DNA of 63,339 nucleotides from a virus, in the IMG/VR virus record IMGVR_UViG_3300028025_002225, positions 1 to 63,339 of that record. One strand, given 5' to 3'. A model generated the notes under the pieces. The model saw nothing but the letters and a program-made list of their open reading frames with translations, was not told the origin of the DNA and ran no database searches. Numbering within the stretch: the stretch's first letter is position 1; every line of letters begins with the position of its first letter. Of this stretch, positions 20,192 through 63,339 are shown in pieces. Both the position numbers and the translations under genes were made by a program.

Positions 20192-20450
20192 ATTTCTTTG
20201 TAAGCTCTTTAATTTGTTTACGAGTATCATTAGCAAGTTTATCTGCTTTAGACAAAGCATTTTCAGGAGAATAACCTTTAGTAAGGTATCCTTCATAATT
20301 TTCTCGATGCATCTTTTTAATTGCTGCTTCATTAATTGCAGGTGTACCCGCTAAATTAGGGTCTAATCCCAAACTTTCACACACATCAGCATCAGAGGTT
20401 TCTGTATCACCTCTTAAAGCAAAGATGTTATAGTTTTTATATTCATTCAT
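20190..20450 (-). CDS. Small unknown protein (86 aa)
   Basis: A Lys/Glu/Ala-rich, mostly helical protein starting MNEYKNYNIFALRGD and ending with a basic tail. The last gene of the long minus-strand operon, overlapping the Dps-like gene by 4 bases. Central sequence (NEAAIKKMHRENYEGYLTKG) suggests a small helical domain. No family recognised. Confidence 0.6.
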   Translation of the reverse strand: MNEYKNYNIFALRGDTETSDADVCESLGLDPNLAGTPAINEAAIKKMHRENYEGYLTKGYSPENALSKADKLANDTRKQIKELTKK

Positions 20451-20926: not shown

Positions 20927-21029
20927 TAGGTTGTTCCTTAGTTGGTTGTTTCTTTTTACCAAAGATTTGATCGTAGTTATCTTTGTATTTTTGTTCGTCA
21001 GTAGGTCTACGACCGCTACCCTTACCCAT
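20898..21029 (-). CDS. Small basic phage protein (43 aa)
   Basis: Starts MGKGSGRRPTDEQKY and contains the pattern Y-x-x-N-Y-D-x-I-F-G-K-K-K, typical of short proteins found in many aquatic phages. It overlaps the start of the Dps-like gene (29 bases, another frame) and the end of the next gene upstream (8 bases). Function unknown; the conserved style and tight packing support it as real. Confidence 0.65.
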   Translation of the reverse strand: MGKGSGRRPTDEQKYKDNYDQIFGKKKQPTKEQPNGNTPAIGI

Positions 21030-29299: not shown

Positions 29300-29736
29300 A
29301 GCTTTGGTTTAAGAAATTTTACTGCCCCAATGTTCCCATTGTAGTAAAGGCGCTCTCCATCAGGTGTTTCAGCTCTCGAAAGAACTTCACATTCCCACTG
29401 CTCTTGGACTTCCCTATACGTAAGCATTCCTTTTCCGAATACCCACTCGTAGATAACAAAAGTAAATGAATTAAATCCGTAGTACTCAATATCATCAAGG
29501 AGTTCTCTGCACGAGGATTTATAATCTCTCCAATCACTTTCTCTTCGAGTGATGGTTCTTCGTTTAGATCCAGGTAGTAGTCGTTTTGATTCACTTATTA
29601 ATTGCTTTCTTCCAATGTATCGTCTTCCTGTTTGGAGGTTTTCGATATAGTAGATGAATCCAAAGGCTCCGTCTGGTCTGTCTGTGAGGGGGTGCCAATG
29701 TCCGTATGACTCAGCACTGAGGCATTGCTGTTCCAT
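29296..29736 (-). CDS. GIY-YIG-like nuclease-domain protein (146 aa)
   Basis: GFIYYIENLQTGRRYIGRKQL (about residues 26-46) is a GIY-YIG core, followed by W-x-D-Y-K-S-S and an acidic helix with EVQEQWECEVL carrying the expected catalytic Glu. Phages use such small nucleases for DNA breakdown or junction processing, or as mobile elements. Its first 46 codons overlap the end of the exonuclease gene by 139 bases in another frame, and no later ATG exists before the domain. Confidence 0.7.
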   Translation of the reverse strand: MEQQCLSAESYGHWHPLTDRPDGAFGFIYYIENLQTGRRYIGRKQLISESKRLLPGSKRRTITRRESDWRDYKSSCRELLDDIEYYGFNSFTFVIYEWVFGKGMLTYREVQEQWECEVLSRAETPDGERLYYNGNIGAVKFLKPKL

Positions 29737-30476
29737 GTTAATCTTTCTTTGAGTTCTTCAAAAGTTAGGGGACGCAAGTCTGATTCAAATTCCCTAATGT
29801 AAATACAGTTAGCGCATCTCACAAAGTTATTATACCACAAGTCACCTTGTTTTGCTTTCCAGATTTCAATAACCTTATTCCACAGTTGGGTATTAGGTGT
29901 ATCTTTAATTAGCTTTTCAGCTGTCTTAGTTCCTACACCACGTAACCCTTGGATGTTATCTGTAGCATCTCCTGTCAGGATTTGAGTCATCAAGAAACGA
30001 TAAGCCTCTGCGTCATCCATGAAGTATATTTCACCTGTTCTAAAGTTATGATGCCATCCAGGAATAGCATTCAAGTCTTTATCAATGTGAGATACAATAT
30101 ACAACTGACCTTCATCAAGAGCTTTCTTAGCGGTAATACCACATAGATCATCTGCTTCACCGTTGTCACTAAGAACACAGAAGTCTTTAGCGTATTCATA
30201 TAGCATATCAATACGATCTTTTACTTCAGGTTCAATAGTGTCTTTACGGTTTCCCTTGTAAGCAATATCAACTTCATATCTAAAGTTGTTAGCACCCTTA
30301 ATAAACACCACTCCATTAGAAGCATTTACGTTCTCCATAATCTCTTTTAGTTTATTATCGAGTGCTTTCTTACATTTAGCTGGAGATGGTTCAACGAAAG
30401 CAATCTGATACATGATACTATCTGCATCTATGATTGCCAGATTAAACTGAATATCATTATCAGTGTACTTCTGCAT
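29598..30476 (-). CDS. 5'-3' exonuclease, T7 gp6/FEN family (292 aa)
   Basis: The start at 30476 (MQKYTDND) has a GGAAAG site and overlaps the polymerase stop by 17 bases. FEN-type acidic residues are visible: AIIDADSIMYQ, DNGEADDLCG, HIDKDLNA and ILTGDATDN, followed by the helix-hairpin-helix GLRGVGTKTAEKLI. It degrades host DNA and removes primers. The C-terminal 45 residues are Ser/Thr/Glu/Asp-rich and are the part overprinted by the GIY-YIG gene. Confidence 0.9.
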   Translation of the reverse strand: MQKYTDNDIQFNLAIIDADSIMYQIAFVEPSPAKCKKALDNKLKEIMENVNASNGVVFIKGANNFRYEVDIAYKGNRKDTIEPEVKDRIDMLYEYAKDFCVLSDNGEADDLCGITAKKALDEGQLYIVSHIDKDLNAIPGWHHNFRTGEIYFMDDAEAYRFLMTQILTGDATDNIQGLRGVGTKTAEKLIKDTPNTQLWNKVIEIWKAKQGDLWYNNFVRCANCIYIREFESDLRPLTFEELKERLTWNSNASVLSHTDIGTPSQTDQTEPLDSSTISKTSKQEDDTLEESN

Positions 30477-32319
30477 ATGTCTTTCCAATGTGAGCATCAC
30501 CGCCCATACAATTAATGCCAAACCATTTAGGCGCTTCAGTGAATGCTTCAATGGCTAACTCTTTAACTTCTTCTGCGTATTCATCTTTAACTACAACAGC
30601 TAGTTCATCATGATAATGAATAGAGAAGTAGAATTGTATACCACGCTCTTGTAGCTTACGTTTAAGATAAACAATAGCTGCTTTACAAGTAACACCTTCA
30701 GCTGTCTGTAGTAGGTAGTTTAATACTTGATGACCAGAGCTAACAAAGATTAATCTACCATCAATACCACGGATGAAAGCTTTATCCTTACCAAACGCAT
30801 TAGATGTTCTTTCAAACATACCATTGAGTTTGTCTTTAAGTTCTTTTAATCCTGGAATAGCACTTTCAAACTTATCTTGAGAGGCTTTACCAATGACAGC
30901 ATCACGTTTACCTGTAAGAATTAAACCAGATTTACCTGCACCTGCACCAAACAGATATGCGTATAGCCATGGTTTAGCTGTCTTACGAGAGCAAGGATAG
31001 ATGGTACTTAGAATGTTAGCATTCTTTGTATGGACATCTCCATTAATTACTTCATTAGTGAATTCGTCATTACCAATATAATGGCATAAACCACGCATCT
31101 GGTTACCAGCAGAATCGGCTCCAACGATTGAGGTACCAGATTCGCATATGAGAAGACTTCGCATCTCTTTTCCGTATACTGAATCCACACTAGGCAGATT
31201 AGCAACAAGCTCATGCCTACAACGGAAAGTTGGTGTACCAATAGTCCACATACGACCATGAAGACGATTATCACGGGATCCTTTAACAGCTTCAATCCAA
31301 CCCTCCAAGATACCTTTCCTTGATCTGATTGTATAGTATTCACTAACCAGCATAGCATCAGGGCCAAGCCGTTCAAGAGATGACTCGGTAATCTTAGGAC
31401 TTTTATTAACAAACTTCCCATTGATTTTCTCCACATTCCATTCATCAGGTACCCAGCCAAGACTATACAACCAGTCTTTAACTACTTCAATACTACCTAC
31501 TTTGCCTTGTTCAAAAGCAATACGACAATATGCACCATCAATAGGTCTATCTTCTTTACCTGACTCTTGTGTATATCCAAAATGTTTTACTGTTGCTACA
31601 GTATAGCATCCATCCTTACGCCATGCAGGTTCTTTATACTCATCTGCTTTATCCATCTTTAAACAACGCATACCAATTCGAGGCTCAAGTACAGCTTCAA
31701 TAGCATCAAGCTTATTATTGATCTGCATCAATAGCGTTTGAGCAGCAGCCATATCAAACATCCAACCTTTTTGTTGTATCTCTGATTCAATCTGAGCAAA
31801 TTCCATCTCAACATCCATACCTGTTTTGTACATAGGATGTTTGTTGATGATCTTAGTTGCTTCTTCTGTAAGTACCTTATAAACCTTTACATTAAGCTCT
31901 ACATCTCGGATACAATATGTAAGCATTTCTTTACTGTATTTATCAAAGGTATTGAATTCTAATTTAGGAAACCCTAATTTAGAACCCCATCCTTCAAGAC
32001 CATGCTTATGATCTCGTTTATATTGATTAAGCTGAGACAATACCCAGGTATCAATTACCTTGGTGGTACTAGCAGGAGTCCATCCAGTGATATATTTGAG
32101 TACAGTAAAATCATAGCCAATAATGTTGTGACCGTAAATAATGTCAGCAGTTTTAAGAAACTCAAGACCTTCTTGTAGAGATGGCAGTTCATTATCATAA
32201 TCAGAAAAAGAATAAATAGTTCCAGTATCAGAATCAATAGCTACCATTAGCCAAATAGTATCTACATTAGGCATAAGCCCGTTTGTTTCTATGTCTACAC
32301 ATAGCCTTAATTTTTTCAT
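30460..32319 (-). CDS. T7-type family A DNA polymerase with 3'-5' exonuclease (619 aa)
   Basis: Exonuclease motifs: VDIETNGL (Asp9, Glu11), GHNIIGYDF (Asn65, Asp70) and YCIRDVELN (Asp139). Polymerase motifs: A VGADSAGNQMRGL (Asp402), B KTAKPWLYAYLFGAG (447-461), and C IHYHDELAVV (His570-Asp571-Glu572). It replicates the phage genome with the primase-helicase and SSB; T7 uses host thioredoxin as clamp, and this phage carries its own thioredoxin-like gene. Size is somewhat below T7 gp5 (704). Confidence 0.95.
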   Translation of the reverse strand: MKKLRLCVDIETNGLMPNVDTIWLMVAIDSDTGTIYSFSDYDNELPSLQEGLEFLKTADIIYGHNIIGYDFTVLKYITGWTPASTTKVIDTWVLSQLNQYKRDHKHGLEGWGSKLGFPKLEFNTFDKYSKEMLTYCIRDVELNVKVYKVLTEEATKIINKHPMYKTGMDVEMEFAQIESEIQQKGWMFDMAAAQTLLMQINNKLDAIEAVLEPRIGMRCLKMDKADEYKEPAWRKDGCYTVATVKHFGYTQESGKEDRPIDGAYCRIAFEQGKVGSIEVVKDWLYSLGWVPDEWNVEKINGKFVNKSPKITESSLERLGPDAMLVSEYYTIRSRKGILEGWIEAVKGSRDNRLHGRMWTIGTPTFRCRHELVANLPSVDSVYGKEMRSLLICESGTSIVGADSAGNQMRGLCHYIGNDEFTNEVINGDVHTKNANILSTIYPCSRKTAKPWLYAYLFGAGAGKSGLILTGKRDAVIGKASQDKFESAIPGLKELKDKLNGMFERTSNAFGKDKAFIRGIDGRLIFVSSGHQVLNYLLQTAEGVTCKAAIVYLKRKLQERGIQFYFSIHYHDELAVVVKDEYAEEVKELAIEAFTEAPKWFGINCMGGDAHIGKTYAEVH

Positions 32320-34244: not shown

Positions 34245-34850
34245 TTAATCTTTCCTTAGGTTGTTACTCAAATTATAAAACAATTCTGACTTAGAAGCTT
34301 TAAGCTGTAACAATAGCATTGTCTCTAACTCATGCATCTCTTGATCAGTACCATACGCTAAGATTGTTCTGATGAACCGTGAGGGACAATCATTGTATTC
34401 CTCAAGCATCGATTCAGAACTGCAGACATATCCATCATCTGTTGTTCCCTTGTGCTTTCCAATGTACTTTCTATCGGTGTCTTTATTGACCCAAAGATAC
34501 ACAAATGACTCACCGCTTGGGCTGTAAGCGTCAGATTCACTGGACACCTCTCCATCATTTACTCCATTAAGATGATTCTGCCATAGTTCCTTCAGATATG
34601 CCAACATAGGCTTACCCTTAGGTGCTCTCCACATGACCACAAAGGATGGTGATCCTTCATTTTCGCATAGATACTCATAGACCCATTTGTTATATAATCC
34701 TGAGTATTCTACTTCATTAACCTTAATACGAATCATGGATTTACCTGAGTCAGATGTATAAGACTCAACCTCATCAACAGTACATTCGTAGATATCAAAG
34801 TATTTATCAGTACCTGTAACAAACTTCTTAATTGTCTTTATTAAGTTCAT
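34245..34850 (-). CDS. GIY-YIG domain protein (201 aa)
   Basis: The N-terminal 115 residues are an unrecognised alpha/beta part (VMWRAPKGKPML). The C-terminal domain has FVYLWVNKDTDRKYIGKHKG, then FIRTILAYGT and a helix HELETMLLLQL, the GIY-YIG pattern with catalytic Glu. Possibly a nuclease used in genome processing or a mobile gene. It overlaps the upstream gene by 23 bases. Confidence 0.68.
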   Translation of the reverse strand: MNLIKTIKKFVTGTDKYFDIYECTVDEVESYTSDSGKSMIRIKVNEVEYSGLYNKWVYEYLCENEGSPSFVVMWRAPKGKPMLAYLKELWQNHLNGVNDGEVSSESDAYSPSGESFVYLWVNKDTDRKYIGKHKGTTDDGYVCSSESMLEEYNDCPSRFIRTILAYGTDQEMHELETMLLLQLKASKSELFYNLSNNLRKD

Positions 34851-40935: not shown

Positions 40936-41445
40936 TTAGAATGGTGAATCATCAGAAGATGATGAAGATGTATCATCAGACTCGGTAGCATCAAAGTCTA
41001 CAAAGTTTTCATTATTACGTTCATATTTAACAAGTTTAGTTACTTGAACAGCAGTGAGCATGTTGGAGATACCTGACTTAGTAACTTTACCATTAGGTGC
41101 TTTGATTTCATAAGGTTTCTGCATAACCATTACGTTACCGATAGAACCATTACCAATGAGCTTAGAGTCAAGAGGATTCTTAGCATTATCTACAACACGT
41201 ACTTTAACAGCATCAGTTCCATCAGCTTTAAGAGCTTTCTTCTTGAGGTTAATAGAGATTTTACCACCATCAATAGACTTAACTTTACCGAAAGCAGATA
41301 ATTCTTTTTCACGTTTCTTGGGAGCTTGGATTTGTAGTTCATACTGTAGAGTACCGAATGGATCAACTGGCTTGTCTAATTTAGCCCAATGTAATTCTAC
41401 ATCTTTGATGATTACGTTTACTGTGTCATTGATTGCTGTTGTCAT
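40936..41445 (-). CDS. Single-stranded DNA-binding protein, T7 gp2.5-like (169 aa)
   Basis: The N-terminal OB-like part has VELHWAKLDKPVDPFGTLQYELQI, a pattern of phage gp2.5-type SSBs, and the protein ends with an acidic Ser/Asp tail terminating in Phe (SSDDSPF), as in gp2.5, where the tail contacts polymerase and helicase. It protects single strands and supports recombination. A phage promoter (42043) points to it, and a terminator directly follows, suggesting high, separate expression. Confidence 0.82.
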   Translation of the reverse strand: MTTAINDTVNVIIKDVELHWAKLDKPVDPFGTLQYELQIQAPKKREKELSAFGKVKSIDGGKISINLKKKALKADGTDAVKVRVVDNAKNPLDSKLIGNGSIGNVMVMQKPYEIKAPNGKVTKSGISNMLTAVQVTKLVKYERNNENFVDFDATESDDTSSSSSDDSPF

Positions 41446-52199: not shown

Positions 52200-53315
52200 A
52201 TGGCAATTCAAACTTTCGCTACTGGCGGCCCTAAGGCTGCTGCACGTAGCTCTGCCGCTACAGGTAACGCAGTTAACGCTGGTGAACGCGAAGACCTAGC
52301 AAACTTTATCTCTATGATTTCTAGAGATGAAACCCCTTTCATGTCATCTATTGGTAAGACTAAAGCTACTGCTGTGTTCCATGAATGGCAAACTGACGAG
52401 TTAGCTGCACCTGCATCTACTCCTGTTGCTGAAGGTATCTCTTATGCTACCCAAGCTGCTGCTCAAGCTACTGAGCCTTACCGTACTCGTTTAGGTAATT
52501 ACACACAGATCAACAGCAAGTCTGTTACTGTTACTGGTACTAAACGTGCTGTTGACCAAGCTGGTGTTGCTGACGAATACGCATATCAACTTAAAAAGCG
52601 TGGTACCGAACTACGTCGTGACGTTGAGTTCGACTTAGTTAACAGCTGGAATAGCTCTAACGGTTCTGGTACTCGTACCTTTGGTGGCTACCAAGCATGG
52701 GTTAACTACACTGCTGCTACCACTACTCCTGCCACTGCTCTAAACATTTTAACGACTGGTTCTGAGTACACTGCTCCTACCAATCCAGGCGGTGGTATTG
52801 CTGGTACTTTCACTACTGTTACTTCTGCTGATAAAAACAGCTTAGCACTATCACACATTGATACTGTTATGCAAGCTATCTACGAAAACGGTGGTAAAGC
52901 TACTAAGCTAATGTTGTCTCCTGCTAACCGCCGTGTATTCTCTGCTAAGGCACAGTCTGCTGGCTCTAGCTCAAGCAATGCTGGTGATGGTAACGTTCGC
53001 CGTAACATCGACCAAGATGGTAAACTACGTCAATCAGTAGAAATCTACATGTCTGACTTCGGTGACATCATGGTTGTTCCTAACTACGTAATGGGTATTT
53101 CTAATACCACCGTATCTGGCTTAGATAACACTGCTAACTTCAGTGCATTCTTATATGACCCAATGTGGTTCAGCTACGCTTCTTTACGTCCTCTACAAGA
53201 AGTTGACTTAGGTCAGCTCGGTGACTCTATCATCGGTCAGATCGTTGAAGAAGGTACATTAGAGTGCCGTAATCCTAAGGGTTGCGGTCTAATCTTCGGT
53301 TTATCTGGCGCTTAA
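52200..53315 (+). CDS. Major capsid protein, SU10/DUF5309-like (371 aa)
   Basis: SMISRDETPFMSSIGKTKA, EWQTDEL near the N-terminus, then YRTRLGNYTQI and KRAVDQAG..., the pattern of SU10-type (DUF5309) HK97-fold capsid proteins, rather than T7 gp10. It builds the head lattice. Codon use (many GCT, GGT, CGT, AAC and TAC) looks more expression-optimised than its neighbours. A strong terminator follows. Confidence 0.85.
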   Translation: MAIQTFATGGPKAAARSSAATGNAVNAGEREDLANFISMISRDETPFMSSIGKTKATAVFHEWQTDELAAPASTPVAEGISYATQAAAQATEPYRTRLGNYTQINSKSVTVTGTKRAVDQAGVADEYAYQLKKRGTELRRDVEFDLVNSWNSSNGSGTRTFGGYQAWVNYTAATTTPATALNILTTGSEYTAPTNPGGGIAGTFTTVTSADKNSLALSHIDTVMQAIYENGGKATKLMLSPANRRVFSAKAQSAGSSSSNAGDGNVRRNIDQDGKLRQSVEIYMSDFGDIMVVPNYVMGISNTTVSGLDNTANFSAFLYDPMWFSYASLRPLQEVDLGQLGDSIIGQIVEEGTLECRNPKGCGLIFGLSGA

Positions 53316-53333
53316 TCGTCAAGTAACCTAAAT

Positions 53334-53364
53334 AAGGAGGGAGAGAAATCTTCCTCCTTTTTTA
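53334..53364 (+). terminator. Terminator after the capsid gene
   Basis: The stem AAGGAGG/CCTCCTT with an extra AGA/TCT pairing is followed by TTTTTTATT. It lies 18 bases after the capsid stop, as the T7 Tphi terminator does, and would raise capsid mRNA over the tail genes. Confidence 0.85.
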
Positions 53365-53379
53365 TTATAAGGAACACAA

Positions 53380-53667
53380 ATGGAATTTCTAAGAATTACA
53401 GCAACAGACGGTACTCGCCAATATATTCCTGATAATTATGTAGCTAATATTGCAACTACTGCAGATGGTACAGATGCTGGTTCAGCCTATAGAGCACCTA
53501 ATGTAACTCGTGGACGTATTAGTCAAGTTAAATATTATGATGGCGCTAATGGTACAGCTGGCGCATTAGTAGTAACTGCAGTTAGCGCATATGCGTCTGG
53601 CGGTATTCTATATGAGTATGGTTGTTTTACTATTGATGGCGCTTTTTCAGTAGCATTACGTAACTAA
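53380..53667 (+). CDS. Possible head decoration or minor structural protein (95 aa)
   Basis: MEFLRITATDGTRQYIPDNY ... ISQVKYYDGANGTAGALVV; beta-rich and compact, directly after the capsid terminator. Decoration or head-completion role inferred from location only. Confidence 0.55.
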   Translation: MEFLRITATDGTRQYIPDNYVANIATTADGTDAGSAYRAPNVTRGRISQVKYYDGANGTAGALVVTAVSAYASGGILYEYGCFTIDGAFSVALRN

Positions 53668-53679
53668 TCAAGAGGACAC

Positions 53680-54003
53680 ATGGGATTTTTATCACAAGAA
53701 AACAATGCTAAAAGCTTTGTTGTTAAAACAGACGAAAAGAATTTTCAATTAGAACAAGATGTGAACGCATACAAAGAGTATGCTGCACAGCAAAGGGAAC
53801 TAGATTCATTTGCCGCAAATGGTAGAACATACAGATCATTTGCTATTATCCCTGATATTGTTGCTATTGATATGTTAACTAAACATGGATTAGATGTACA
53901 CTCTCCTGAGTTTATGCAGGATCCAGCTAATCTAAGAAAATTAAAACAAGTTATTGAATCAGATTATCCATTACTAAAAACTAGTAATGTGAGAGCTTTA
54001 TAA
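53680..54003 (+). CDS. Unknown structural-region protein (107 aa)
   Basis: Helical and charged, with FVVKTDEKNFQLEQDVNAYK and IPDIVAIDMLTKHGLDVHSP. Between the capsid and adaptor genes. Function unknown. Confidence 0.58.
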   Translation: MGFLSQENNAKSFVVKTDEKNFQLEQDVNAYKEYAAQQRELDSFAANGRTYRSFAIIPDIVAIDMLTKHGLDVHSPEFMQDPANLRKLKQVIESDYPLLKTSNVRAL

Positions 54004-54012
54004 GGAAAATAA

Positions 54013-54927
54013 ATGGCAACACCTAGATTTGACGCTTTAGTCGCTAAAGTAAGAGACTGGAGTAATAAACCTGAGATCAACACTATTCCCGACAGCGTCA
54101 TTCAGGATTGCTTATCATACAGCGCTGATGAATGCTATCGACAACTACGTATTCCACCATTAGAAGCAACAACAATCTACACAGTTGCTGCTGAAGATAA
54201 CTCAGGAGAAAATAGTTTAGGACTACCTTATGGTAATGCCTACACTTCTTTTGATATTCCAGAAGATTTAACACAATTCGTTTATATACGGACATTAGCT
54301 CAAGAAAATCTTGGTACAGCATACTCTACTTTCCCTTCTAATGTAAGTAAAGTATTTAATGAAGTAACTGATACACGTACTTTCTTTGATTTATACAGTG
54401 AAAAATACTCTGTATATAACTGGATGTGGAAAGATGGTAAGATTTATATTCATCCACAATTAGCTGTTGGTGCTGAGGTAGAGATTCATTATTACAGACG
54501 TTTGCCTGCTTTAAATGCTACATACAGTGTTACTCCTATTAACTATTTAATTGGTTTATCAGATGCTGAGCAACCATACCTATCTCTTACAGGTGTTAGC
54601 ACAGATACTCCTTTGTATTTTTCAACAGCATCATCTGTAATGAAATGTTTTGCTACATATGCTGAAGCTGCCGCATACAATCCAACTGTAACTACTAAAT
54701 ATTATATTGGTAAAGAAGTATCTAATTGGTTAAGAGACAATAATGAAAGATTAGTTGTGTGGGGTGGATTATACAACTTAGGTGCATATTTATTTGATGA
54801 GACTATGGAGAAACGTTATGAAAAACGTTTTAATGAAACATTATTCTCACTTAACAAAGAAGAAAAATGGCGTAGAGCTTCAGGCGGTAACGTACAAGTT
54901 AATTTTAATACTAACGGTTTAATTTAA
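54013..54927 (+). CDS. Head-tail adaptor / tail tubular protein A candidate (304 aa)
   Basis: ATPRFDALVAKVRDWSNKPE, then SVIQDCLSYSADECYRQLRIPPLE, matches the N-terminal pattern of podovirus adaptors (gp11/p28 type): helices that dock on the portal followed by a beta domain (VEIHYYRRLPAL). T7 gp11 is 196 aa, so this version is longer. The nozzle partner candidate is at 3767, far away in the map. Confidence 0.7.
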   Translation: MATPRFDALVAKVRDWSNKPEINTIPDSVIQDCLSYSADECYRQLRIPPLEATTIYTVAAEDNSGENSLGLPYGNAYTSFDIPEDLTQFVYIRTLAQENLGTAYSTFPSNVSKVFNEVTDTRTFFDLYSEKYSVYNWMWKDGKIYIHPQLAVGAEVEIHYYRRLPALNATYSVTPINYLIGLSDAEQPYLSLTGVSTDTPLYFSTASSVMKCFATYAEAAAYNPTVTTKYYIGKEVSNWLRDNNERLVVWGGLYNLGAYLFDETMEKRYEKRFNETLFSLNKEEKWRRASGGNVQVNFNTNGLI

Positions 54928-54938
54928 AGGGGAGTTAA

Positions 54939-56645
54939 ATGGGATACCAACAACAACCTGGAATGACTGGTAGTATTTCTGCTGGTGGTGAATACGATAA
55001 TTTAGATAACGTAACATCAGTACAATATACTAATTTGGCCGCAGAAGATGCTGCTGCAGCCGCATTAAGTGCTGAAGAAGCTGCTGCCTCTGCATTAGCT
55101 GCTGCTGGTTCTGCTAGTAGTGCGTCTACCAGTGCAGGTACCGCTACTACTCAAGCGGGTATAGCTACAACACAAGCAGGAATTGCCACTACACAGGCAG
55201 GTATTGCGACTACTCAAGCGGGTAATGCCGCTACTAGTGCAAGTACTGCTACTACACAAGCTGGAATAGCTACTACACAGGCAGGTATAGCAACTACTCA
55301 AGCTGGGATAGCTACTACTCAAGCGGGTATTGCAACTACTCAAGCAAGTAATGCAGCCACATCAGCCGCAGACGCATTAACTTCTCAAACTGCTGCTGCG
55401 GCATCTGCTGCACAAGCATTAGCTGCATTTGATAACTTTGATGACAAATATCTTGGTGAAAAGAATGCTGACCCCACAGTAGATAATGATGGTAATCCCC
55501 TCCAAACAGGTGCATTATACTTTAATACAGTAACTAACACCATGAAGGTGTATTCTGGTACTATCTGGATAGAGGCTTATGCTGATGGAGCATCATTCCT
55601 TGCAAAAGCAAATAATTTATCAGACTTAAATAACGTAGCTACTGCACGTACTAATCTTGGATTAGGTACAGCAGCAACAACTAATAGTACAGATTATGCT
55701 ACTGCTGCCCAAGGTGCTAAAGCAGATACAGCGTTACAAACAATTACTTCTGTTGATGGTAGTGTGACTATTGCTACAACAGGTACTACAAGCGATTTAA
55801 GTGTTGCTGTTGCTGCCGCTTCTACAAACGTTATTGCTCAAGTACGTAATACAACTGGAGCAACATTAACTAAAGGAACTGCAGTATATATCTCAGGTGC
55901 TACAGGTCAATTACCTACAGTATCTAAAGCATTAGCTACATCTGATGCTACTTCAGCTCAAACACTAGGTTTAATAACTGCTGACCTAGCTAATAATTCT
56001 AACGGTTATGTTACTGTTATTGGTTTAATTACTAATATTAACACATCAGCTTATACAGATGGTGAACAATTATATTTAAGTTCTACAACTGCAGGAACAT
56101 TAACAGCTACTAAGCCTTATGCACCTCAACATCTTGTTTATGTAGCTGTTGTTGAACATGCACATGCAACTCAAGGTAAGTTGTTTGTTAAAGTACAAAA
56201 CGGTTACGAAATGGATGAGCTACATGATGTGTCTGCTCAGAACCCTACTAATGGTCAAGTATTAATCTATAATGAAACAACTTCATTATGGGAAAAACAT
56301 ACATTAACTGATGGTACTGGTATTAATATTACTGAGGGTGCTGGTTCTATTACCGTTAATTTAGCATCTAACTATGGTGATACATTAAACCCTTATGATT
56401 CTAAAACAGCTAACTATGTATTAGCAGCACCTAATGGGACAGCTGGAGTACCTACATTCAGGGCTATTAATGCAGCTGATATTCCAACATTAAATCAGAA
56501 TACAACAGGTACTGCTAATAACGTGACAGGTATTGTGGCGTTAGCTAATGGTGGTACAGGCGCAGACAATGTAGCTTCTGCTCAAACAAATCTTCAAGTC
56601 GATCCAGCAGGAACTGCAGTAGCTTTAGCGATTGCTCTTGGTTAA
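54939..56645 (+). CDS. Tail fibre with heptad-repeat shaft (568 aa)
   Basis: The N-terminal 60 residues are Ala-rich helix; residues about 69-145 are almost exact heptads of TTQAGIA, then a beta-rich C-terminal part (NNLSDLNNVATARTNLGLG) typical of trimeric fibre shafts and knobs. The last part has ANGGTGADNVASAQTNL, common in phage fibres. It probably forms a trimeric coiled-coil stalk. First of five or six fibre genes. Confidence 0.75.
   Translation: MGYQQQPGMTGSISAGGEYDNLDNVTSVQYTNLAAEDAAAAALSAEEAAASALAAAGSASSASTSAGTATTQAGIATTQAGIATTQAGIATTQAGNAATSASTATTQAGIATTQAGIATTQAGIATTQAGIATTQASNAATSAADALTSQTAAAASAAQALAAFDNFDDKYLGEKNADPTVDNDGNPLQTGALYFNTVTNTMKVYSGTIWIEAYADGASFLAKANNLSDLNNVATARTNLGLGTAATTNSTDYATAAQGAKADTALQTITSVDGSVTIATTGTTSDLSVAVAAASTNVIAQVRNTTGATLTKGTAVYISGATGQLPTVSKALATSDATSAQTLGLITADLANNSNGYVTVIGLITNINTSAYTDGEQLYLSSTTAGTLTATKPYAPQHLVYVAVVEHAHATQGKLFVKVQNGYEMDELHDVSAQNPTNGQVLIYNETTSLWEKHTLTDGTGINITEGAGSITVNLASNYGDTLNPYDSKTANYVLAAPNGTAGVPTFRAINAADIPTLNQNTTGTANNVTGIVALANGGTGADNVASAQTNLQVDPAGTAVALAIALG
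55140..55374 (+). repeat. 21-bp tandem repeats encoding heptads
   Basis: Eleven or so units coding for TTQAGIA and close variants (TTQAGNA, ATSASTA, TTQASNA). The DNA units differ mainly at third codon positions, so the peptide is under selection while the DNA drifts. This may change in number by slippage and alter shaft length. Confidence 0.85.
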
Positions 56646-56658
56646 TAAAGGAAAATAA

Positions 56659-56985
56659 ATGGCAAATACATTTACATCTTACGGCAATAAATCCGTGGGA
56701 ACATCTGCGGCAACAGTCGCTACTATTGGAGCATCAACGCAGACTACTGTAATTGGAATGTCTTGTGCTAACACAACTACTTCACCTGTTACTGTTGATG
56801 CTTATTTTACACGTTCTGCAGTAGACTATTACTTAATTAAAGGTGCAGTAGTACCTGTAGGTGGTGCATTAGTTATTGTTGGTGGTGATCAAAAAGTAGT
56901 TCTTATTACAGATGATGTACTTAAAGTAGTATCATCTGTTGCATCATCTATTGACGTTGTTACATCAGTATTAAATATTACGTAA
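56659..56985 (+). CDS. Small structural beta protein (108 aa)
   Basis: MANTFTSYGNKSVGTSAATVA ... GMSCANTTTSPVTVDAYFTR, a compact beta protein of a kind seen between fibre genes in marine phages. Probably a tail or fibre accessory; exact role unknown. Confidence 0.6.
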   Translation: MANTFTSYGNKSVGTSAATVATIGASTQTTVIGMSCANTTTSPVTVDAYFTRSAVDYYLIKGAVVPVGGALVIVGGDQKVVLITDDVLKVVSSVASSIDVVTSVLNIT

Positions 56986-56994
56986 GGAGTATAT

Positions 56995-58188
56995 ATGTCA
57001 TATATTGGTAGTACTCCTACTCAACAATCATTTGTTCCTTCATTAGATTATTTTAGTGGTAATGGATCAACTGTAGCATTTACATTATCTAGACCAGTAG
57101 CCTCTGTTGCTCAAGTACAAGTTAATATTTCTAATGTAGCACAGAATCCAAGCAGTGCATACTCAGTTAATGGTAATGTTATTACGTTCACCTCTGCTCC
57201 ACCAAGCGGTACAAACAACATCTATGTGTACTACACCAGCCCGATTACTCAGGTGATTGCACCGGGGCAGGGAACGGTTACATCAGAGAGCTTTGGAACT
57301 ATCACCAACTTCACCACCACAGGCAACACTGTCCTTGGTGACGCATCTACTGACACACTGAATGTCGGTAATGGAGGCTTGGTCAAGGATGCCAGCGGTA
57401 ATGTGGGTATTGGTACTGCTTCGCCAGCTTATAAATTACAAGCAAATGCTGGCGGTTCAAACAACAACAATGACGCAAATACTATTGTAGCCACAGGAAC
57501 GAACCACGTTCGATTGAAGGTGCACACGCCAACTACGGGCGGGTTTCGAGCGTCTTTGGTTCTTTCGTCTGACGAGGCCGTTACAGCAACGGGCAACGAG
57601 GTCAGCATTTCCACAACTGGCTCTGATGAAATGCAGTTTGCTACTGGCGGCTCAGAACGTGCCCGTATCGACTCCAGCGGTAACTTGCTGGTGGGGACTA
57701 CGAGTAATGGACGAACTGACTCAAACGGAACTGCGATTGACCCAACTGGTGTTGTTTACCAAAATCATATAACTGGTACAGCTTCAGGAAGTTTTTACAC
57801 CCGTTTTTCTCTTGCAGGCACTCAAATTGGCTCTATTTCTCAGAGTGGAACTACTGCTGTTGCATATACCACATCATCCGACTACCGCTTAAAGAATACT
57901 ATCGCCCCAATGACAGGAGCACTGGCGAAGGTTCAACAACTCAAGCCAGTCACATATAAGTGGAACGCTGACGGCTCAGACAGCCAAGGCTTTATTGCAC
58001 ATGAATTACAAGAAGTAGTACCGGATTGTGTGCATGGGGAAAAAGACGCAGTGGACGCTGATGGCAATCCGCAGTATCAAGGCATCGACACCAGCTTCTT
58101 GGTTGCCACACTGACAGCCGCAATCCAAGAACAACAAGCCCTCATCACCACCCTAACTAACCGCATCACAGCACTGGAGAATAAATAA
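56995..58188 (+). CDS. Tail fibre with S74 intramolecular chaperone (397 aa)
   Basis: The N-terminal adaptor begins MSYIGSTPTQQSFVP. The C-terminal S74 (endosialidase chaperone-type) domain has TTSSDYRLKNTIAPM, with the Ser...Lys dyad five apart (S-D-Y-R-L-K), and QGFIAHELQEVVPD. It should trimerise and then cut itself off. Base composition changes sharply near 57,190-57,240, between the AT-rich N-terminal part and a GC-richer remainder, showing a fibre swap. Confidence 0.85.
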   Translation: MSYIGSTPTQQSFVPSLDYFSGNGSTVAFTLSRPVASVAQVQVNISNVAQNPSSAYSVNGNVITFTSAPPSGTNNIYVYYTSPITQVIAPGQGTVTSESFGTITNFTTTGNTVLGDASTDTLNVGNGGLVKDASGNVGIGTASPAYKLQANAGGSNNNNDANTIVATGTNHVRLKVHTPTTGGFRASLVLSSDEAVTATGNEVSISTTGSDEMQFATGGSERARIDSSGNLLVGTTSNGRTDSNGTAIDPTGVVYQNHITGTASGSFYTRFSLAGTQIGSISQSGTTAVAYTTSSDYRLKNTIAPMTGALAKVQQLKPVTYKWNADGSDSQGFIAHELQEVVPDCVHGEKDAVDADGNPQYQGIDTSFLVATLTAAIQEQQALITTLTNRITALENK

Positions 58189-59294
58189 TGCCAATCAGTA
58201 CTATTAACTCAGCGGGGTTGACAAGCCCTTTAACGGGTGCGGCTATAACCTCCACAGGCGGTGGTTCTGTTGCCACCAACACTGCGTTTGGTTCAAGTGC
58301 TTTGGCTTCTAACACGACAGGTGCTGGGAATGTCGCTATCGGCTATCAAGCTGTGGCTACCAGCACAACAGGCAATTACAACGCCGCAGTTGGTCAACAG
58401 GCCATGCAAAACGGAGATGGCGCAACAGGAAATGCCGCTTTGGGATACCAAGCGCTCAGAGCAAGTACAGGAACATACAACACAGGTATTGGGTTTGCTA
58501 CTGGCCAATCCATTACATCTGGCAACTACAATACTGCAATTGGAAGTCAAGCGCTCAACAGTAACACCACAGCCTCCAACAACACTGCTGTAGGTTATCA
58601 GGCGGGGTATAGCAATACCACAAGCATTGAAAGCACTTACATCGGCCATGTTGCGGGCTATTCCACTACAGGTGCTAGCAATACATTTATCGGACAAGGC
58701 GCTGGCTACTCTGTAACCTCTGGTGCAAAAAACACCATTCTTGGCAAATTCACAGGCAACTCAGGCGGCTTAAACATCACTACAGCAAGCAACTACATCG
58801 TGCTGTCTGATGGGGATGGAAATCCAAGGGGTCAGTTTAACAATGGTACTGCGTTTGCTTTGCAAGGTGCTGGAAATGCCGCAAATCCATACATAACTAG
58901 TTTTGATTCTTCTCTTTATGCCTATGGAAGGATTGCATCTAGTTCGGGCGTTTACCTTGCAAATAACGCAACAAGCTGGGCAAGCACTTCTGACGAACGC
59001 CGTAAAGACATCATTGAACCAATTACAAACGCCACAGAAAAACTTTTAACACTGCGGACGGTGATTGGAAAATTTAAAGTTGATGAAGATGGAACACGCA
59101 GACCATTCTTGATTGCCCAAGACGTGCTGGCTGTTTTCCCAGAGGCTGTAAACCATCAAGAAGACGAAGATGGTGAATTTTTGGGTATGTCTTATACGGA
59201 CATGATTCCACTGCTTGTAGCCGCAATCAAAGAACTCAAAGCAGACCTTGACGCAACAAAAGCAGAACTTGCCGCATTGAAAGGTACATTATGA
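58188..59294 (+). CDS. Tail fibre with YadA-head-like repeats and S74 chaperone (368 aa)
   Basis: Residues about 25-190 are repeats of N-T-A-F/I-G-x-x-A-L (NTAFGSSAL, NVAIGYQAV, NAALGYQAL, NTAIGSQAL), the left-handed beta-roll of trimeric YadA-like heads. The C-terminus has a S74 domain with TSDERRKDIIEPI (Ser, Lys) and DVLAVFPEAV. It overlaps the previous gene by 1 base. GC-rich relative to the main genome. Receptor binding is likely. Confidence 0.82.
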   Translation: MPISTINSAGLTSPLTGAAITSTGGGSVATNTAFGSSALASNTTGAGNVAIGYQAVATSTTGNYNAAVGQQAMQNGDGATGNAALGYQALRASTGTYNTGIGFATGQSITSGNYNTAIGSQALNSNTTASNNTAVGYQAGYSNTTSIESTYIGHVAGYSTTGASNTFIGQGAGYSVTSGAKNTILGKFTGNSGGLNITTASNYIVLSDGDGNPRGQFNNGTAFALQGAGNAANPYITSFDSSLYAYGRIASSSGVYLANNATSWASTSDERRKDIIEPITNATEKLLTLRTVIGKFKVDEDGTRRPFLIAQDVLAVFPEAVNHQEDEDGEFLGMSYTDMIPLLVAAIKELKADLDATKAELAALKGTL

Positions 59295-60829
59295 GCTATA
59301 TAGGTAATACACCTACAACAGCAGCCTTTCTAACTGATCAATTCAGTGGGAATGGCTCAACCACTACATATACAATGTCAGTGGCTCCTGCCACTACATC
59401 CTCTATTATTGTGGCTATTACAGGGGTAGTACAAGACCCCTCAACATATTCTGTTAATGGTACATCATTAACATTTTCAGCAGCACCTCCAGCAGGAACA
59501 GGTAATATTTCTATACGTTATCTTGGTATCCCTGCTTCAGGTGTAGCTACTACTGCATACAGAACTATTACCGATAGTACAGCTACTGCAGGACAAACAA
59601 CGTTTACTATTCCATCATATACTGTAGGATATTTAAATGTATATCGTAATGGAGTAAGATTAGCTACGGCAGACTATACTGCAAGTAACGGTACATCTGT
59701 TGTATTAACTAATAGTGCGTCTGCTGGTGACACTATCACTACTGAGTCGTTCTATGTGTCTTCCGTGTTGAATGCTTTCCCAACAACAGGCGGGACACTC
59801 AGCGGTCAGTTGGCAGTCAACAGTGCCACAGGACAGAAGCCCTTGATCGCACAGGTCAACGGTACTGAGGTGTTTGAAGTTGATGCAAGTGGGCGAGTTG
59901 GTATAGCCACTTCGTCTCCACAAAACCTGCTGAACATCGTCAAGGACTCAGCCAACTCGTCTGCGGCGGCCAATGCTGGCGTTGCCATCCAGTCTGATTC
60001 TGGTGCAACCTATACCGCAGGATTGCATTTTGGTACAGATAAAACAGGCGTTCTTTCCTATATCCAGTCTGATAGCTCGGCGTCGTACTCAGCAGTGCCT
60101 CTTGTGATTAACCCACTTGGCGGTAATGTGGGGATTGGTACGAGTTCGCCAAGTTACAAGTTGGATGTGTCTGGAGCTATAAGTTGGTTGCCGGGAGTTA
60201 CAGGCGCTCCAAGAGGTTATATGAGCGGCGCAAGTGCAGACCAATCTGTTGAGATTGGCACAAATACAAATAGTCCTCTTGGGTTTGCAACCAATGCTAT
60301 AAGAAGGATGGCTATCGACACCAGCGGTAACTTGCTGGTGGGGACTACGAGTACAGATAGTGGAAGAATGTGTGTTGAAGCCCAAACAAATGGATATGCT
60401 ATTTCATTCCGCAGAAACACAGGTGTTTATGGTTCAAACACAAAAGTCGGTCAAATTTCTTGTGATTCATCATCTACTGTATACACCACATCATCTGATT
60501 ATCGTCTAAAAGAAAATATTGCACCTATGACAGGTGCTTTGAATAAAGTTACTCAGCTTAAACCTGTGACATATACATGGAAAGAGTCTGGAGAAGCAAC
60601 GCAAGGTTTTATTGCCCACGAACTTCAAGCTGTCGTGCCTGATGCTGTTGTTGGTGAAAAAGACGCAGTAGACGCTGAAGGCAATCCTGTCTACCAAGGC
60701 ATCGACACCAGCTTCTTGGTTGCCACACTGACAGCCGCAATCCAAGAGATGAAGACAATCATCGACACCCAAGCCAGCACCATCACTCAATTACAGGCAG
60801 ACGTAGCCGCATTGAAAGGAACAGCATGA
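59291..60829 (+). CDS. Tail fibre with S74 intramolecular chaperone (512 aa)
   Basis: An N-terminal MSYIGNTPTTAAF adaptor paralogous to the one at 56995; the C-terminal S74 domain has TTSSDYRLKENIAPM and QGFIAHELQAVVPD. The AT-rich start changes to GC-richer DNA close to 59,760, a similar junction to that in the 56995 gene. It shares nearly identical DNA with that gene near 58,090/60,700 and 57,670/60,320. Overlaps neighbours by 4 bases at both ends. Confidence 0.85.
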   Translation: MSYIGNTPTTAAFLTDQFSGNGSTTTYTMSVAPATTSSIIVAITGVVQDPSTYSVNGTSLTFSAAPPAGTGNISIRYLGIPASGVATTAYRTITDSTATAGQTTFTIPSYTVGYLNVYRNGVRLATADYTASNGTSVVLTNSASAGDTITTESFYVSSVLNAFPTTGGTLSGQLAVNSATGQKPLIAQVNGTEVFEVDASGRVGIATSSPQNLLNIVKDSANSSAAANAGVAIQSDSGATYTAGLHFGTDKTGVLSYIQSDSSASYSAVPLVINPLGGNVGIGTSSPSYKLDVSGAISWLPGVTGAPRGYMSGASADQSVEIGTNTNSPLGFATNAIRRMAIDTSGNLLVGTTSTDSGRMCVEAQTNGYAISFRRNTGVYGSNTKVGQISCDSSSTVYTTSSDYRLKENIAPMTGALNKVTQLKPVTYTWKESGEATQGFIAHELQAVVPDAVVGEKDAVDAEGNPVYQGIDTSFLVATLTAAIQEMKTIIDTQASTITQLQADVAALKGTA

Positions 60830-61932
60830 CTAATGCAGTTGATATAGCCCAATCAGGGTCAAACAATGTAACGATGCGCAATCGGATCATCAATGGCGGG
60901 ATGGCTATAGATCAGAGGAAATCAGGCGCAATTGTTGCAACAACAACGACAGGTGCGTTTTCTTATACAGTAGACCGATGGGCCTACTTTGTTGATGCCG
61001 CTTCAAAATTTACAGTCCAGCAAACTCCAAGTGCCACAGAAACTGGGTATGCAACTCGTGTTGGAGCAGGGTTTACAAACTATCTTGCAATGACTTCAAC
61101 GTCTGCTTACACCGCTGGGTCATCAGAAATACTTGTGATGTCCCAACCTATTGAAGGATTTAATTTTTCTGACATGGCTTGGGGAACCGCAAACGCCAAA
61201 ACTGTTACGTTGTCATTTTGGGCGTACTCAAGCTTGACTGGAACTCATAGCGGGTCAATTGGAAATGGAGTTGGATATTCATACCCATTTTCTTTCTCAA
61301 TTCCAACAGCAAATACATGGACGCAGATAAGCGTAACAATTGCTGGCCCGACAACCAGCACATGGCCGACAAATAACACGGCAAACGCATATTTGTTTTT
61401 TAATATGGGTTGCGGAAGTGCAAGACTGAGCACTGCTGGAGCTTGGACTGCGACAGCTTCTTACGGCGCAACTGGCTCAGTCTCCCTTGTCGGAACAAAC
61501 GGAGCCACCTTCTACATCACAGGCGTACAGTTGGAAAAAGGCTCTACCGCCACACCGTTTGAACAGCGTTTGTATGGCACTGAGTTGGCGCTGTGTCAGC
61601 GGTATTACTATAAACAACAATCAACCGGAGCTGCTTCATATTTTGGAGTAGGAACTGTCAATAGTTCCACACTCGTTGTCGCACTTATAAAATTTCCTGT
61701 TGCGCTTAGGACAGCGCCTTCAGCATTAGAGCAAGACGGAACTGCTGGAGATTATAGAGTTACTGTTGGTGCTACTTCAACAAACTGCAGTAGTGTTCCT
61801 GTATTTAACTCAGGTGATGTTTGGGGGGCTACAGTTCAGTTTACCGTTGCTTCTGGCTTAACAATAGCACAATCCGCTTTACTTCGTTCTGTCAACTCAA
61901 CCGCTTATCTAGGATGGAGTGCTGAATTATGA
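60826..61932 (+). CDS. Tail fibre protein (368 aa)
   Basis: VTMRNRIINGGMAIDQRKSG near the start, SYTVDRW, QPIEGFNFSDMAWGTA in the middle, and YGTELALCQRYYYK near the end: a pattern I recognise as a common receptor-facing domain of phage fibre and tail proteins. It is paralogous to the partial gene at 62750 and to the fragment at 1-386. No S74 domain. Its small partner follows at 61929. Confidence 0.78.
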   Translation: MTNAVDIAQSGSNNVTMRNRIINGGMAIDQRKSGAIVATTTTGAFSYTVDRWAYFVDAASKFTVQQTPSATETGYATRVGAGFTNYLAMTSTSAYTAGSSEILVMSQPIEGFNFSDMAWGTANAKTVTLSFWAYSSLTGTHSGSIGNGVGYSYPFSFSIPTANTWTQISVTIAGPTTSTWPTNNTANAYLFFNMGCGSARLSTAGAWTATASYGATGSVSLVGTNGATFYITGVQLEKGSTATPFEQRLYGTELALCQRYYYKQQSTGAASYFGVGTVNSSTLVVALIKFPVALRTAPSALEQDGTAGDYRVTVGATSTNCSSVPVFNSGDVWGATVQFTVASGLTIAQSALLRSVNSTAYLGWSAEL

Positions 61933-62090
61933 TTTTCAAAATTCATTCAACCAACATGGATGGTCAAGTCATCTATGCTCGCATTGACGATGATGGCAAA
62001 TGCCGCCTGACTTGCACCGAAGACTACCCAGAGTTCAAGGCTTGGCTTGCTGAAGGCAACCAACCCCTGCCAGCAGAGGAGAACACATAA
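61929..62090 (+). CDS. Small fibre-associated protein, second copy (53 aa)
   Basis: MIFKIHSTNMDGQVIYARID, near-identical to the protein at 383-547 but with a different C-terminal end (LAEGNQPLPAEENT). Linked to the fibre gene by ATGA and to the next gene by TAATG. Confidence 0.75.
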   Translation: MIFKIHSTNMDGQVIYARIDDDGKCRLTCTEDYPEFKAWLAEGNQPLPAEENT

Positions 62091-62749
62091 TGGCACTGAC
62101 ACAAGCTTGGAACCCGACCGCATTGTTGGTAATGCGCCATCGGGTCACGGGCTTGCGTTATTTCTGCAAGACAACCAATCTAAAGCTGATGCATCAATAC
62201 AAAGGCAGTGGCGTTTATTGGAAGCGTCACATGCGCAAGCATGGCAGAGATATTGAGGTTGGATTGCTTGGTGTTTATTTTGACAAAGAAAGATGTCTTG
62301 CCGCCGCAGAGCAATTTTGTGAAGAACACCAGATTAGCTCAAGCCCTGAGTGGGCAAACTTAATTCCTGAAAATGGGCTTGATGGAGCGCCAATGGGCGA
62401 AGCTCATCCAATGTTTGGCAAGCCAAGCCCATGCATTGGTCAAAAACGTCCTTGGGTGGGTAAGAAGGGCTCTGACAACCCCATGTGGGGAAAGCCCGGA
62501 GCTATGCTTGGCATACCAAAGCCAAAAGGTAAAGATAGCCCCTTGTACGGCAGAAAGCGTCCTGAAGGCGGCGGCAAGAAGCCTCATGCGGTCATCAGAA
62601 TAGATGCTGACGGCGCGGAAACGAGATACGATTCTGTGGCTGATGCGGCAAGAGCTTTGGAAGTTTCACGCTCTTGCATACACACAGTTTGCACTGGTAA
62701 AAACAAAACCGGCGCTGGTTACAAATGGCGATATGCCGAGGAGAAATAA
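62090..62749 (+). CDS. Homing-endonuclease-like protein with NUMOD motifs (219 aa)
   Basis: The N-terminal half (RHRVTGLRYFCKTTN ... MHQYKGSGVYWKRHMRKHG) resembles a GIY-YIG type nuclease. The middle has repeated H/N/S-P-M/L-F/W/Y-G motifs (AHPMFGKPSP, NPMWGKPG, SPLYGRKRPEG), the NUMOD3 pattern. The C-terminus (YDSVADAARALEVSRSCIHTVC) is a NUMOD1-type helix-turn-helix. These are the domains of free-standing phage homing endonucleases. It begins MALTQ, the same five residues as the fibre gene that follows. Confidence 0.78.
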   Translation: MALTQAWNPTALLVMRHRVTGLRYFCKTTNLKLMHQYKGSGVYWKRHMRKHGRDIEVGLLGVYFDKERCLAAAEQFCEEHQISSSPEWANLIPENGLDGAPMGEAHPMFGKPSPCIGQKRPWVGKKGSDNPMWGKPGAMLGIPKPKGKDSPLYGRKRPEGGGKKPHAVIRIDADGAETRYDSVADAARALEVSRSCIHTVCTGKNKTGAGYKWRYAEEK

Positions 62750-63339
62750 ATGGCTTTGACGCAAGTGGACGGTGGCTTACTAAGCCCAACAAACGGTCAG
62801 TTTTATTCCATGAAGAACCGCATCATCAACGGCGCAATGGTTATTGACCAGAGGAATGCGGGGGCGAGTGTTACTTTAGGAAGCGGAGGCGCATACACAC
62901 TTGATCGTTGGCGTTTCTACTCTGCTCAAGCATCTAAGCTATCTCTACAGCAAAATGCTGGCTCTGTAACTCCACCAGCAGGATTTATTAACTATCTTGG
63001 GCTTACTTCATTATCGGCATATTCTGTACTATCAACAGATACTTTTACACTGCAACAAAAAATTGAAGGTTTGAATGTTGCTGATTTGGCGTGGGGTACT
63101 GCGTCTGCCGCAACAGTAACTTTGTCTTTTTGGGTTCGTAGTTCTTTAACTGGAACTTTTGGTGGTTCAGTATATAACTCGGCTCAAACAAGAAGTTATC
63201 CATTCAGCTACACAATTAGTTCAGCAAATACTTGGGAACAAAAGTCAGTTACTATTGCTGGAGATACATCTGGAACATGGCTAACCACAAATGGTACAGG
63301 TGTTGAACTTGTTTTTAGTCTAGGTGCTGGTTCTACGCT
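62750..63339 (+). CDS. Tail fibre protein, N-terminal part (3' truncated by window end)
   Basis: Starts MALTQVDGGLLSPTNG and has NRIINGAMVIDQR, LDRWRFYS and KIEGLNVADLAWGTA, paralogous to the fibre at 60826. It runs off the window in frame at a point equivalent to about base 61,426 of that gene. Together with the fragment at 1-386 (which starts at the equivalent of 61,544), it probably forms one gene across the junction. Confidence 0.75.
   Translation, partial: MALTQVDGGLLSPTNGQFYSMKNRIINGAMVIDQRNAGASVTLGSGGAYTLDRWRFYSAQASKLSLQQNAGSVTPPAGFINYLGLTSLSAYSVLSTDTFTLQQKIEGLNVADLAWGTASAATVTLSFWVRSSLTGTFGGSVYNSAQTRSYPFSYTISSANTWEQKSVTIAGDTSGTWLTTNGTGVELVFSLGAGST

Follow-up and report, generated by a model that had tools for sequence, protein, structure and literature searches.

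Mosaic tail fibres with a short DNA-identical seam at the stalk-tip joint in a podovirus-like phage

The virus record IMGVR_UViG_3300028025_002225 of IMG/VR, derived from a water-borne, podovirus-like phage, harbors an array of tail-fibre genes whose parts and joints are the subject of this analysis; the window is the whole record of 63,339 bases. Six fibre genes, F1 to F6, lie within 54939-63339 in the order F1, an open reading frame (ORF) of 108 amino acids (aa), F2, F3, F4, F5, a small ORF, an HNH endonuclease gene and F6, where an initial annotation, made from the sequence alone, had counted at least five fibre genes in a row. The common MSYIG N-terminus that it described for F2 and F4 is real, as their residues 1-78, MSYIG included, align at roughly half identity. 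In the following list GC3 is the GC content at third codon positions, and the relatives are 44 distinct of 59 loci, each extending more than 2.5 kb past the adaptor gene.

54013..54927, plus strand: SU10-type head-tail adaptor gene, the fixed left neighbour of the array (PF24175, 7.3e-9; relatives up to 90% identity)
54939..56645, plus strand: F1, fibre gene (PHROG tail fibre families)
56659..56985, plus strand: 108-aa ORF between F1 and F2, present in 11 of the 44 distinct relatives
56995..58188, plus strand: F2, mosaic S74 fibre (PF13884, 5.5e-13; PHROG tail fibre)
56995..57246, plus strand: N-terminal adaptor of F2 (GC3 0.214, like the phage background), in 10 of the 44 distinct relatives
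57395..57437, plus strand: stalk joint GNVGIGT of F2, with 81% DNA identity to 60120-60162
57666..57706, plus strand: seam A in F2, encoding IDSSGNLLVGTTS, 33 nucleotides (nt) exact with F4; GCTGGTGG at 57687
57707..57876, plus strand: tip region of F2, variable, putative receptor-binding part
57877..58185, plus strand: S74 intramolecular chaperone of F2, starting at Ser295 of SDYRLK
58078..58130, plus strand: seam B in F2 (QGIDTSFLVATLTAAIQ), 53 nt exact with F4
58188..59294, plus strand: F3, S74 fibre without the MSYIG adaptor (GC3 0.389; PF13884 above the cut-off)
59291..60829, plus strand: F4, mosaic S74 fibre (PF13884, 6.7e-15)
59291..59770, plus strand: N-terminal adaptor of F4 (GC3 0.200)
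60313..60353, plus strand: seam A in F4 (repeat comparison, exact-run test)
60354..60493, plus strand: tip region of F4 (F2/F4 alignment)
60494..60826, plus strand: S74 chaperone and C-terminal coiled coil of F4 (PF13884)
60695..60747, plus strand: seam B in F4 (exact-run test)
60826..61932, plus strand: F5, fibre gene of a second family (phrog_4492)
61929..62090, plus strand: small ORF after F5
62090..62749, plus strand: HNH/NUMOD homing endonuclease gene between F5 and F6 (Pfam, PHROG; GC3 0.470)
62750..63339, plus strand: F6, F5 paralogue, cut by the contig end
1..386, plus strand: rest of F6 at the start of the contig (its C-terminal 127 aa)

Both F2 and F4 are mosaic in composition. The phage structural genes have a GC3 of 0.205, which the N-terminal parts of F2 and F4 share (0.214 and 0.200; p 0.79 and 0.92 versus background), and the remainders of the two genes reach 0.441 and 0.398 (p 7e-20 and 2e-15 versus background); GC3 is also 0.389 in F3 and 0.342 in F5. 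The best GC change points lie at 57,184 in F2 (0.333 to 0.492, p 0.003) and at 59,717 in F4 (0.390 to 0.477, p 0.024), so that the GC switches proposed at about 57,200 and 59,760 are confirmed by both GC content and codon use. Each change-point p was obtained against 1000 codon shuffles and is uncorrected for the 22 genes tested, and values below 0.05 were also found for F1, F6 and the genes at 3767 and 16545; GC3 shows the break in F2 and F4 more clearly than the change points. Relatives of F4 mostly match residues 1 to about 164-190 and then stop, which agrees with the GC break in this gene. The adaptors can be called native as far as composition goes, their GC3 being the phage's own, but that of F4 is also present in records where the window capsid gene was not found (mostly about 60-83% identity; some of these records are at least 40 kb long), and therefore the F4 adaptor travels too. 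What was described as a foreign C-terminus is made up of two pieces at least, namely the tip, about 60 residues long, and the S74 chaperone.

This chaperone is the C-terminal Peptidase_S74 domain, for which PF13884 scores above the cut-off in F2, F3 and F4, and its S295, D296 and K300, the catalytic Ser-Asp...Lys, are invariant in 45 sequences. A structure model of F2 (mean predicted local distance difference test score 69.7, predicted template modelling score 0.45; reliable for the S74 part alone) matches the MyRF ICA domain, and the profile matches S74 chains in the PDB, in which a search with F2 alone gave no match at E 0.1. According to PMC10769870, the S74 domains of Bdellovibrio and phage proteins serve to fold the trimer, after which they are cleaved off at the SDxxxK serine. 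By analogy, the chaperones of F2-F4 are expected to cleave themselves off, so that only the tip would face the host.

F2 and F4 share two exact runs of DNA, one of 33 nt at 57674-57706 and 60321-60353 (seam A), which encodes SSGNLLVGTTS, and one of 53 nt at 58078-58130 and 60695-60747 (seam B), whereas the longest run in 500 synonymous-codon shuffles was at most 26 nt. The near-identical stretches reported around 57,670/60,320 and 58,090/60,700 are thus exact and longer than codon use provides. Between and around these tracts the chaperones of F2 and F4 are alike as proteins, with mostly different codons.

Seam A also occurs far outside the window. Its 28-nt core, encoding SSGNLLVGTT, is present exactly in at least 119 IMG/VR stretches, whereas two other F2 28-mers, which serve as controls and also encode conserved peptides, are present in 0 and 1 (the word searches in IMG/VR gave at least 119 and at least 120 stretches, with 80 listed in each). 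The core is carried by fibre ORFs 172-1324 aa long, of which some are cut by contig ends and most have a chaperone-like C-terminus about 160-200 residues past the seam A word. Around the seam, conservation is down to the background level within some 4 nt on the tip side (downstream) and some 20 nt on the stalk side (upstream), as calculated from 71 distinct contexts of 82 sites after dropping those too near an end or with flanks more than 80% alike. In a sample chosen by peptide (79 of 81 sites used), an identical 21-nt core was found in 23 of the 79 contexts, versus 0.002 expected from the genes' own codon use and 3.9 expected from the product of codon marginals if codons were independent. 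The exact seam DNA stands in unrelated contexts, since all 309 same-word pairs of the DNA-unbiased set lack homology on either flank. Furthermore, the seam A word is the commonest shared DNA word in S74 representatives fetched by other queries (8 of 30), and of 161 peptides present in at least 8 genes, 39, including FIAHELA and GEKDAVD of the S74 domain, have no shared DNA word. The carriers are not one group: a match to the SU10 portal profile was obtained for 19 of 34 carrier records, in some cases at 1e-180 or better, in others at about 1e-17 or only at 1e-6 to 1e-13, and 15 have none, although some of these may be fragments lacking the gene. The best GenBank phage match to seam A is the isolate Roseobacter phage CRP-1, with 92% over 38 nt. 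Prophages, in which a search for the same C-terminal domains had been suggested, are not donors as far as searched: an exact seam A 25-mer is present in none of 84,980 prokaryote genomes, and three peptide-level matches among them all lie in contigs of metagenome-assembled genomes. A second shared DNA block, GNLGLGVTPSA, was seen in 8 representatives about 335-346 aa from the end of the fibre ORF and could be another joint.

Recombinants were sought among 233 sites with 200 nt on both sides, from which exact duplicates had been removed; two records that are the same on both sides are hence not counted among the two-sided pairs. Homology was one-sided in 14 of 27,028 site pairs (5 upstream, 9 downstream) and two-sided in none; together with L291/L301, at the 0.70 threshold, 15 one-sided pairs are listed. 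These recombinants end inside the seam, with downstream homology starting at -1 to -27 of the GNLLVG codons and upstream homology ending at +23 to +26. Loci L051 and L191 have a common cassette from -3 to +505 (94.3% identical; stop codon beginning at +501), and L089 and L296 one from -27 to +541 (98.9% identical; stop codon beginning at +537), so that in both pairs homology ends 4 nt beyond the start of the stop codon. In L221/L276 and L243/L305 homology returns about 20-45 codons before the stop and the middle alone is replaced, and in L243/L089 and L349/L401 it runs past the stop to +842 and +2361, respectively. The window capsid gene is present at 90% in L051 and L089 and was not found in the records of L191, L243 and L296. 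The recombinant gene of L051 is the F4 orthologue, in which the N-terminal 170 residues are close and tip and chaperone are different. L349 and L401 are close contigs (97% and 94% on either side) with a different stalk and the right border at seam A, i.e., the stalk was replaced and the tip kept.

The fibre locus is hypervariable among relatives. A locus was taken as kin by a match to the window capsid, adaptor or portal, and a short locus without such a match may still be kin. An F2-type and an F4-type N-terminus are each present in 10 of the 44 distinct relatives, and 23 of the 44 have a single first ORF of at least 900 aa instead. The full-length combination of F2, F3, F4 and F5 is found in 0 of the 44, so that the arrangement is not fixed, and L051 is the only relative with the same gene order as the window. 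L068 carries, 13-3400 nt past the adaptor gene, an apparent tandem duplication of a part of F1, the 108-aa ORF and the F2 N-terminus.

We consider it probable that the fibres are modular and that the tip, with or without the chaperone, is exchanged among co-infecting phages by short-homology recombination at the joints. In such a fibre a phage-specific N-terminal adaptor would carry a beta stalk with a short, variable tip, and the S74 chaperone at the C-terminus would fold the trimer. Short joints would provide the homology for exchanging the tip, alone or together with the chaperone. They are the seam between stalk and tip (IDSSGNLLVGTT, where roughly 28-41 nt are identical as DNA), the chaperone start and the C-terminal end of the chaperone. 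Under repeated exchange of this kind both flanks would turn over while the seam stayed identical as DNA, and AT-rich adaptors would come to be followed by GC-richer tips; the exchange may be driven by selection for new host range. Profile searches of part of the ORFs of the window identified two candidate recombination factors by predicted function.

40936..41445, minus strand: Gp2.5-like single-stranded DNA-binding/annealing protein (phrog_112, 6.5e-12)
29598..30551, minus strand: 5'-3' exonuclease (phrog_107, 1.7e-51; PF02739)

Since the phage encodes both proteins, single-strand annealing by its own exonuclease and gp2.5-like protein during co-infection seems to be the likeliest route. The accessible text of PMC3945230 gives minimal pairing segments of 31-34 bp for RecA and 23-27 for Red-beta, which the tract lengths of 28-53 nt match. 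Of the features of a short-homology mosaic, the window has identical tracts of pairing length (33 and 53 nt), and the 15 listed pairs are bordered at the seam. The initial annotation had seen a system for swapping receptor-binding parts in this locus. Its mosaic genes, composition break at module joints, shared blocks at exchange sites and hypervariable locus all hold, but no dedicated machinery was found in the ORFs and repeats searched, and the process looks like ordinary phage recombination. Inverted repeats around alternative ends, as in the Mu/P1 type, are absent from 53000-63339, where the array repeats are direct and the sole inverted pair of at least 20 nt is a palindrome at 53562-53595; no match to a serine invertase was found among 30 ORFs (Pfam) and 27 ORFs (PHROGs) in overlapping sets, and the same ORFs gave no profile match to a reverse transcriptase, nor was a template-like repeat noticed in 53000-63339.

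Several observations weigh against so prominent a role of the seams. In a scan of 227 S74 genes that was not anchored at the seam, the S74 motif was the starting point of 49 of 109 high-identity blocks of at least 100 nt (null mean 5.5, maximum 13), and seam A, with 6 of 109 block starts and 3 of 110 block ends versus 4.7 and 3.3 in the null, was not above it. The null was counted on one gene only and is hence lenient, and a looser scan of the same kind agrees that the chaperone start leads over seam A. Moreover, the top DNA word of seam B is found in only 3 of 16 once loci fetched by seam B DNA are left out, just 15 one-sided pairs, which are not independent, were examined, and nearly all contigs are metagenomic. 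Blocks of the same type in the unanchored scan end at GNVGIGT in 16 of 110 cases (null 2.8, maximum 10). The unanchored scans, which put the chaperone start first, lead us to reject seam A as the principal breakpoint in fibre exchange as a whole, and seam B as an equally general DNA seam is weak without the loci chosen by its own DNA. Seam A is a real joint, though not the commonest breakpoint of long shared blocks; the exchange uses several joints, among which seam A is distinguished as a short DNA-identical island. The leading breakpoint falls where cleavage is expected, which would explain the free recombination of tips and chaperones. One might go further and regard the seam as a shared exchange standard under lasting selection across several aquatic podovirus-like lineages, which we regard as a tentative and rather doubtful idea; if it were true, the common word would let a phage accept ready-made tip cassettes from any carrier, and the lineages would draw on one tip pool.

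That the seam DNA is preserved not by exchange but by a constraint acting on the nucleic acid, be it a Chi hot-spot signal, an mRNA hairpin or a translation pause before the tip folds, is improbable. The seam A word does contain the E. coli Chi octamer GCTGGTGG and a potential hairpin CCAGC-N8-GCTGG, Chi occurs in 25 of 57 non-core variants versus 0.82 expected, the window has 5 Chi sites where 0.97 would be expected, fibre genes carry 3 of these on their coding strand, and the hairpin pairs are kept slightly above shuffles (3.56 versus 3.42 of 5; 2 of 2000 shuffles reach this). However, the enrichment goes beyond Chi, since the following third base (GGG) shows a 5.1-fold enrichment as well, Chi is missing from seam B, and the hairpin test ignores relatedness. 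Moreover, the codons of the word are linked (the 23 cores versus 3.9 from independent sites), as shared descent gives, and the spread of one DNA piece is therefore favoured over site-wise constraint. Chi as the cause was set aside as a lead only, since the enrichment exceeds the octamer and the recombinant pairs L317/L388 and L357/L363 lack Chi in either partner. The mRNA hairpin was rejected, its covariation being weak and confounded by relatedness. The Chi sites of the window lie at 54981, 57687 and 60334 on the plus strand, two of them inside seam A, and at 34107 and 62972 on the minus strand. In the S74 ORFs of 122 representatives (247 kb), GCTGGTGG occurs 89 times on the coding strand versus 6 times on the other, and it is present in 53 GNLLVG sites.

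Still less probable are assembly chimeras, by which the one-sided joins would be misjoins of metagenome contigs at short repeated words. Assemblers can misjoin at repeats, the partners are nearly all metagenomic contigs, and the window contig itself ends inside the 68-nt F5/F6 repeat; for individual pairs a misjoin is possible, because the homology of L243/L089 and L349/L401 passes the stop. In L051/L191 and L089/L296, however, homology stops at the stop codon, where a misjoin would bring the downstream DNA along, and identities are 94-99%, not 100%, across different sample ids, with frames staying open. Furthermore, the GC3 breaks and paralogous tracts of the window require no joins, and the isolate Roseobacter phage CRP-1 has the seam at 92% over 38 nt. 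Protein-level conservation, i.e., a hinge peptide whose codon preference yields the same DNA by chance and a GC shift due to amino-acid composition, is very unlikely and already disfavoured: RIDSSGNLLVGTT is indeed among the most conserved stretches of the family, but GC3 shifts too, beyond GC, exact cores number 23 where codon use predicts 0.002 of 79, and no shared DNA word exists for the conserved S74 peptides FIAHELA (N 10) and GEKDAVD (N 19).

The wider genome of the phage contains an SU10-like podovirus head-tail module, recognized in Pfam by the SU10-type portal (PF23899, 1.5e-123) and the adaptor (PF24175), and encodes an RNA polymerase, a primase-helicase and a DNA polymerase A (Pfam profiles). 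A ferritin-like gene (20447-20962), a PhoH-like gene (3075-3755) and another homing-endonuclease-like gene (34245-34850) are also present. The homing endonuclease at 62090-62749 has the highest GC3 of the measured genes and is found downstream of the adaptor gene in 0 of the 44 distinct relatives. F1 has 21-nt tandem repeats at 55096-55389 (ATTQAGI-like heptads). Nucleotides 1-68 of the record are identical to 61544-61611 of F5 and code for the terminal part of an F5-like protein, and therefore F6 appears to resume at the contig start (3-386); behind its remainder the small ORF occurs a second time (about 383-546). Since the record breaks inside F6, whose end together with the small-ORF copy opens the contig, the array probably continues across the contig ends with a gap between them, and the genome is probably circular, or permuted, the gap being small. 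As a joint, this 68-nt F5/F6 island was set aside, as its 28-mer is in no fetched locus and the related sites are as few as 14.

Changes of receptor-binding parts by recombination at defined places are known from the adhesin exchange of T-even phages and from the invertible fibres of Mu and P1, of which the former stays within one group and the latter uses a site-specific invertase and inverted repeats. In the open PMC literature, a scope outside which most subscription journals lie, no text contains the string GNLLVGT and no description of the seam was found in the searches made. How unrelated phages trade host-binding parts without long homology, by short-homology or by illegitimate recombination, is an old question, which becomes testable here because an identical short joint with recombinant ends inside can be recoded while the protein stays unchanged. 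Moreover, the seam is a handle to find tip cassettes in metagenomes, and host prediction based on fibres may track the cassette instead of the phage that carries it. Domain mosaicism of receptor-binding proteins (PMC10684548) resembles the array in its constant N-terminus, swapped C-terminal parts and recent cross-family exchange in fibres and spikes, but is based on protein profiles; the accessible text names no conserved DNA joint, and the word 'linker' is absent from the main text. Relaxed homologous recombination, as described in the accessible text of PMC3945230, likewise has short homology at mosaic borders and pairing lengths that fit the 28-53 nt tracts, but concerns mostly temperate or defective E. 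coli phages with Rad52-like recombinases, whereas the window phage looks lytic with a T7-type set. The MAT fibres of Bdellovibrio are also trimeric mosaics with a conserved N-terminal domain, a beta stalk and variable tips, and 13 of 21 have an S74 chaperone with the SDxxxK motif; unlike the phage fibres they are bacterial surface fibres of one chromosome, and the accessible text describes no DNA seam (PMC10769870). The host recognition module of Alteromonas phages A5 and V22 is a fibre with a chaperone common to distant phages, but with a separate chaperone gene, transfer of the whole module and an old date of transfer, and no exact DNA joint is described in the accessible text (PMC10579305). 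The swapping of fibre modules is thus well known, and what appears to be new in the array is a DNA-identical seam shared across phage lineages, with recombinants that end in it.

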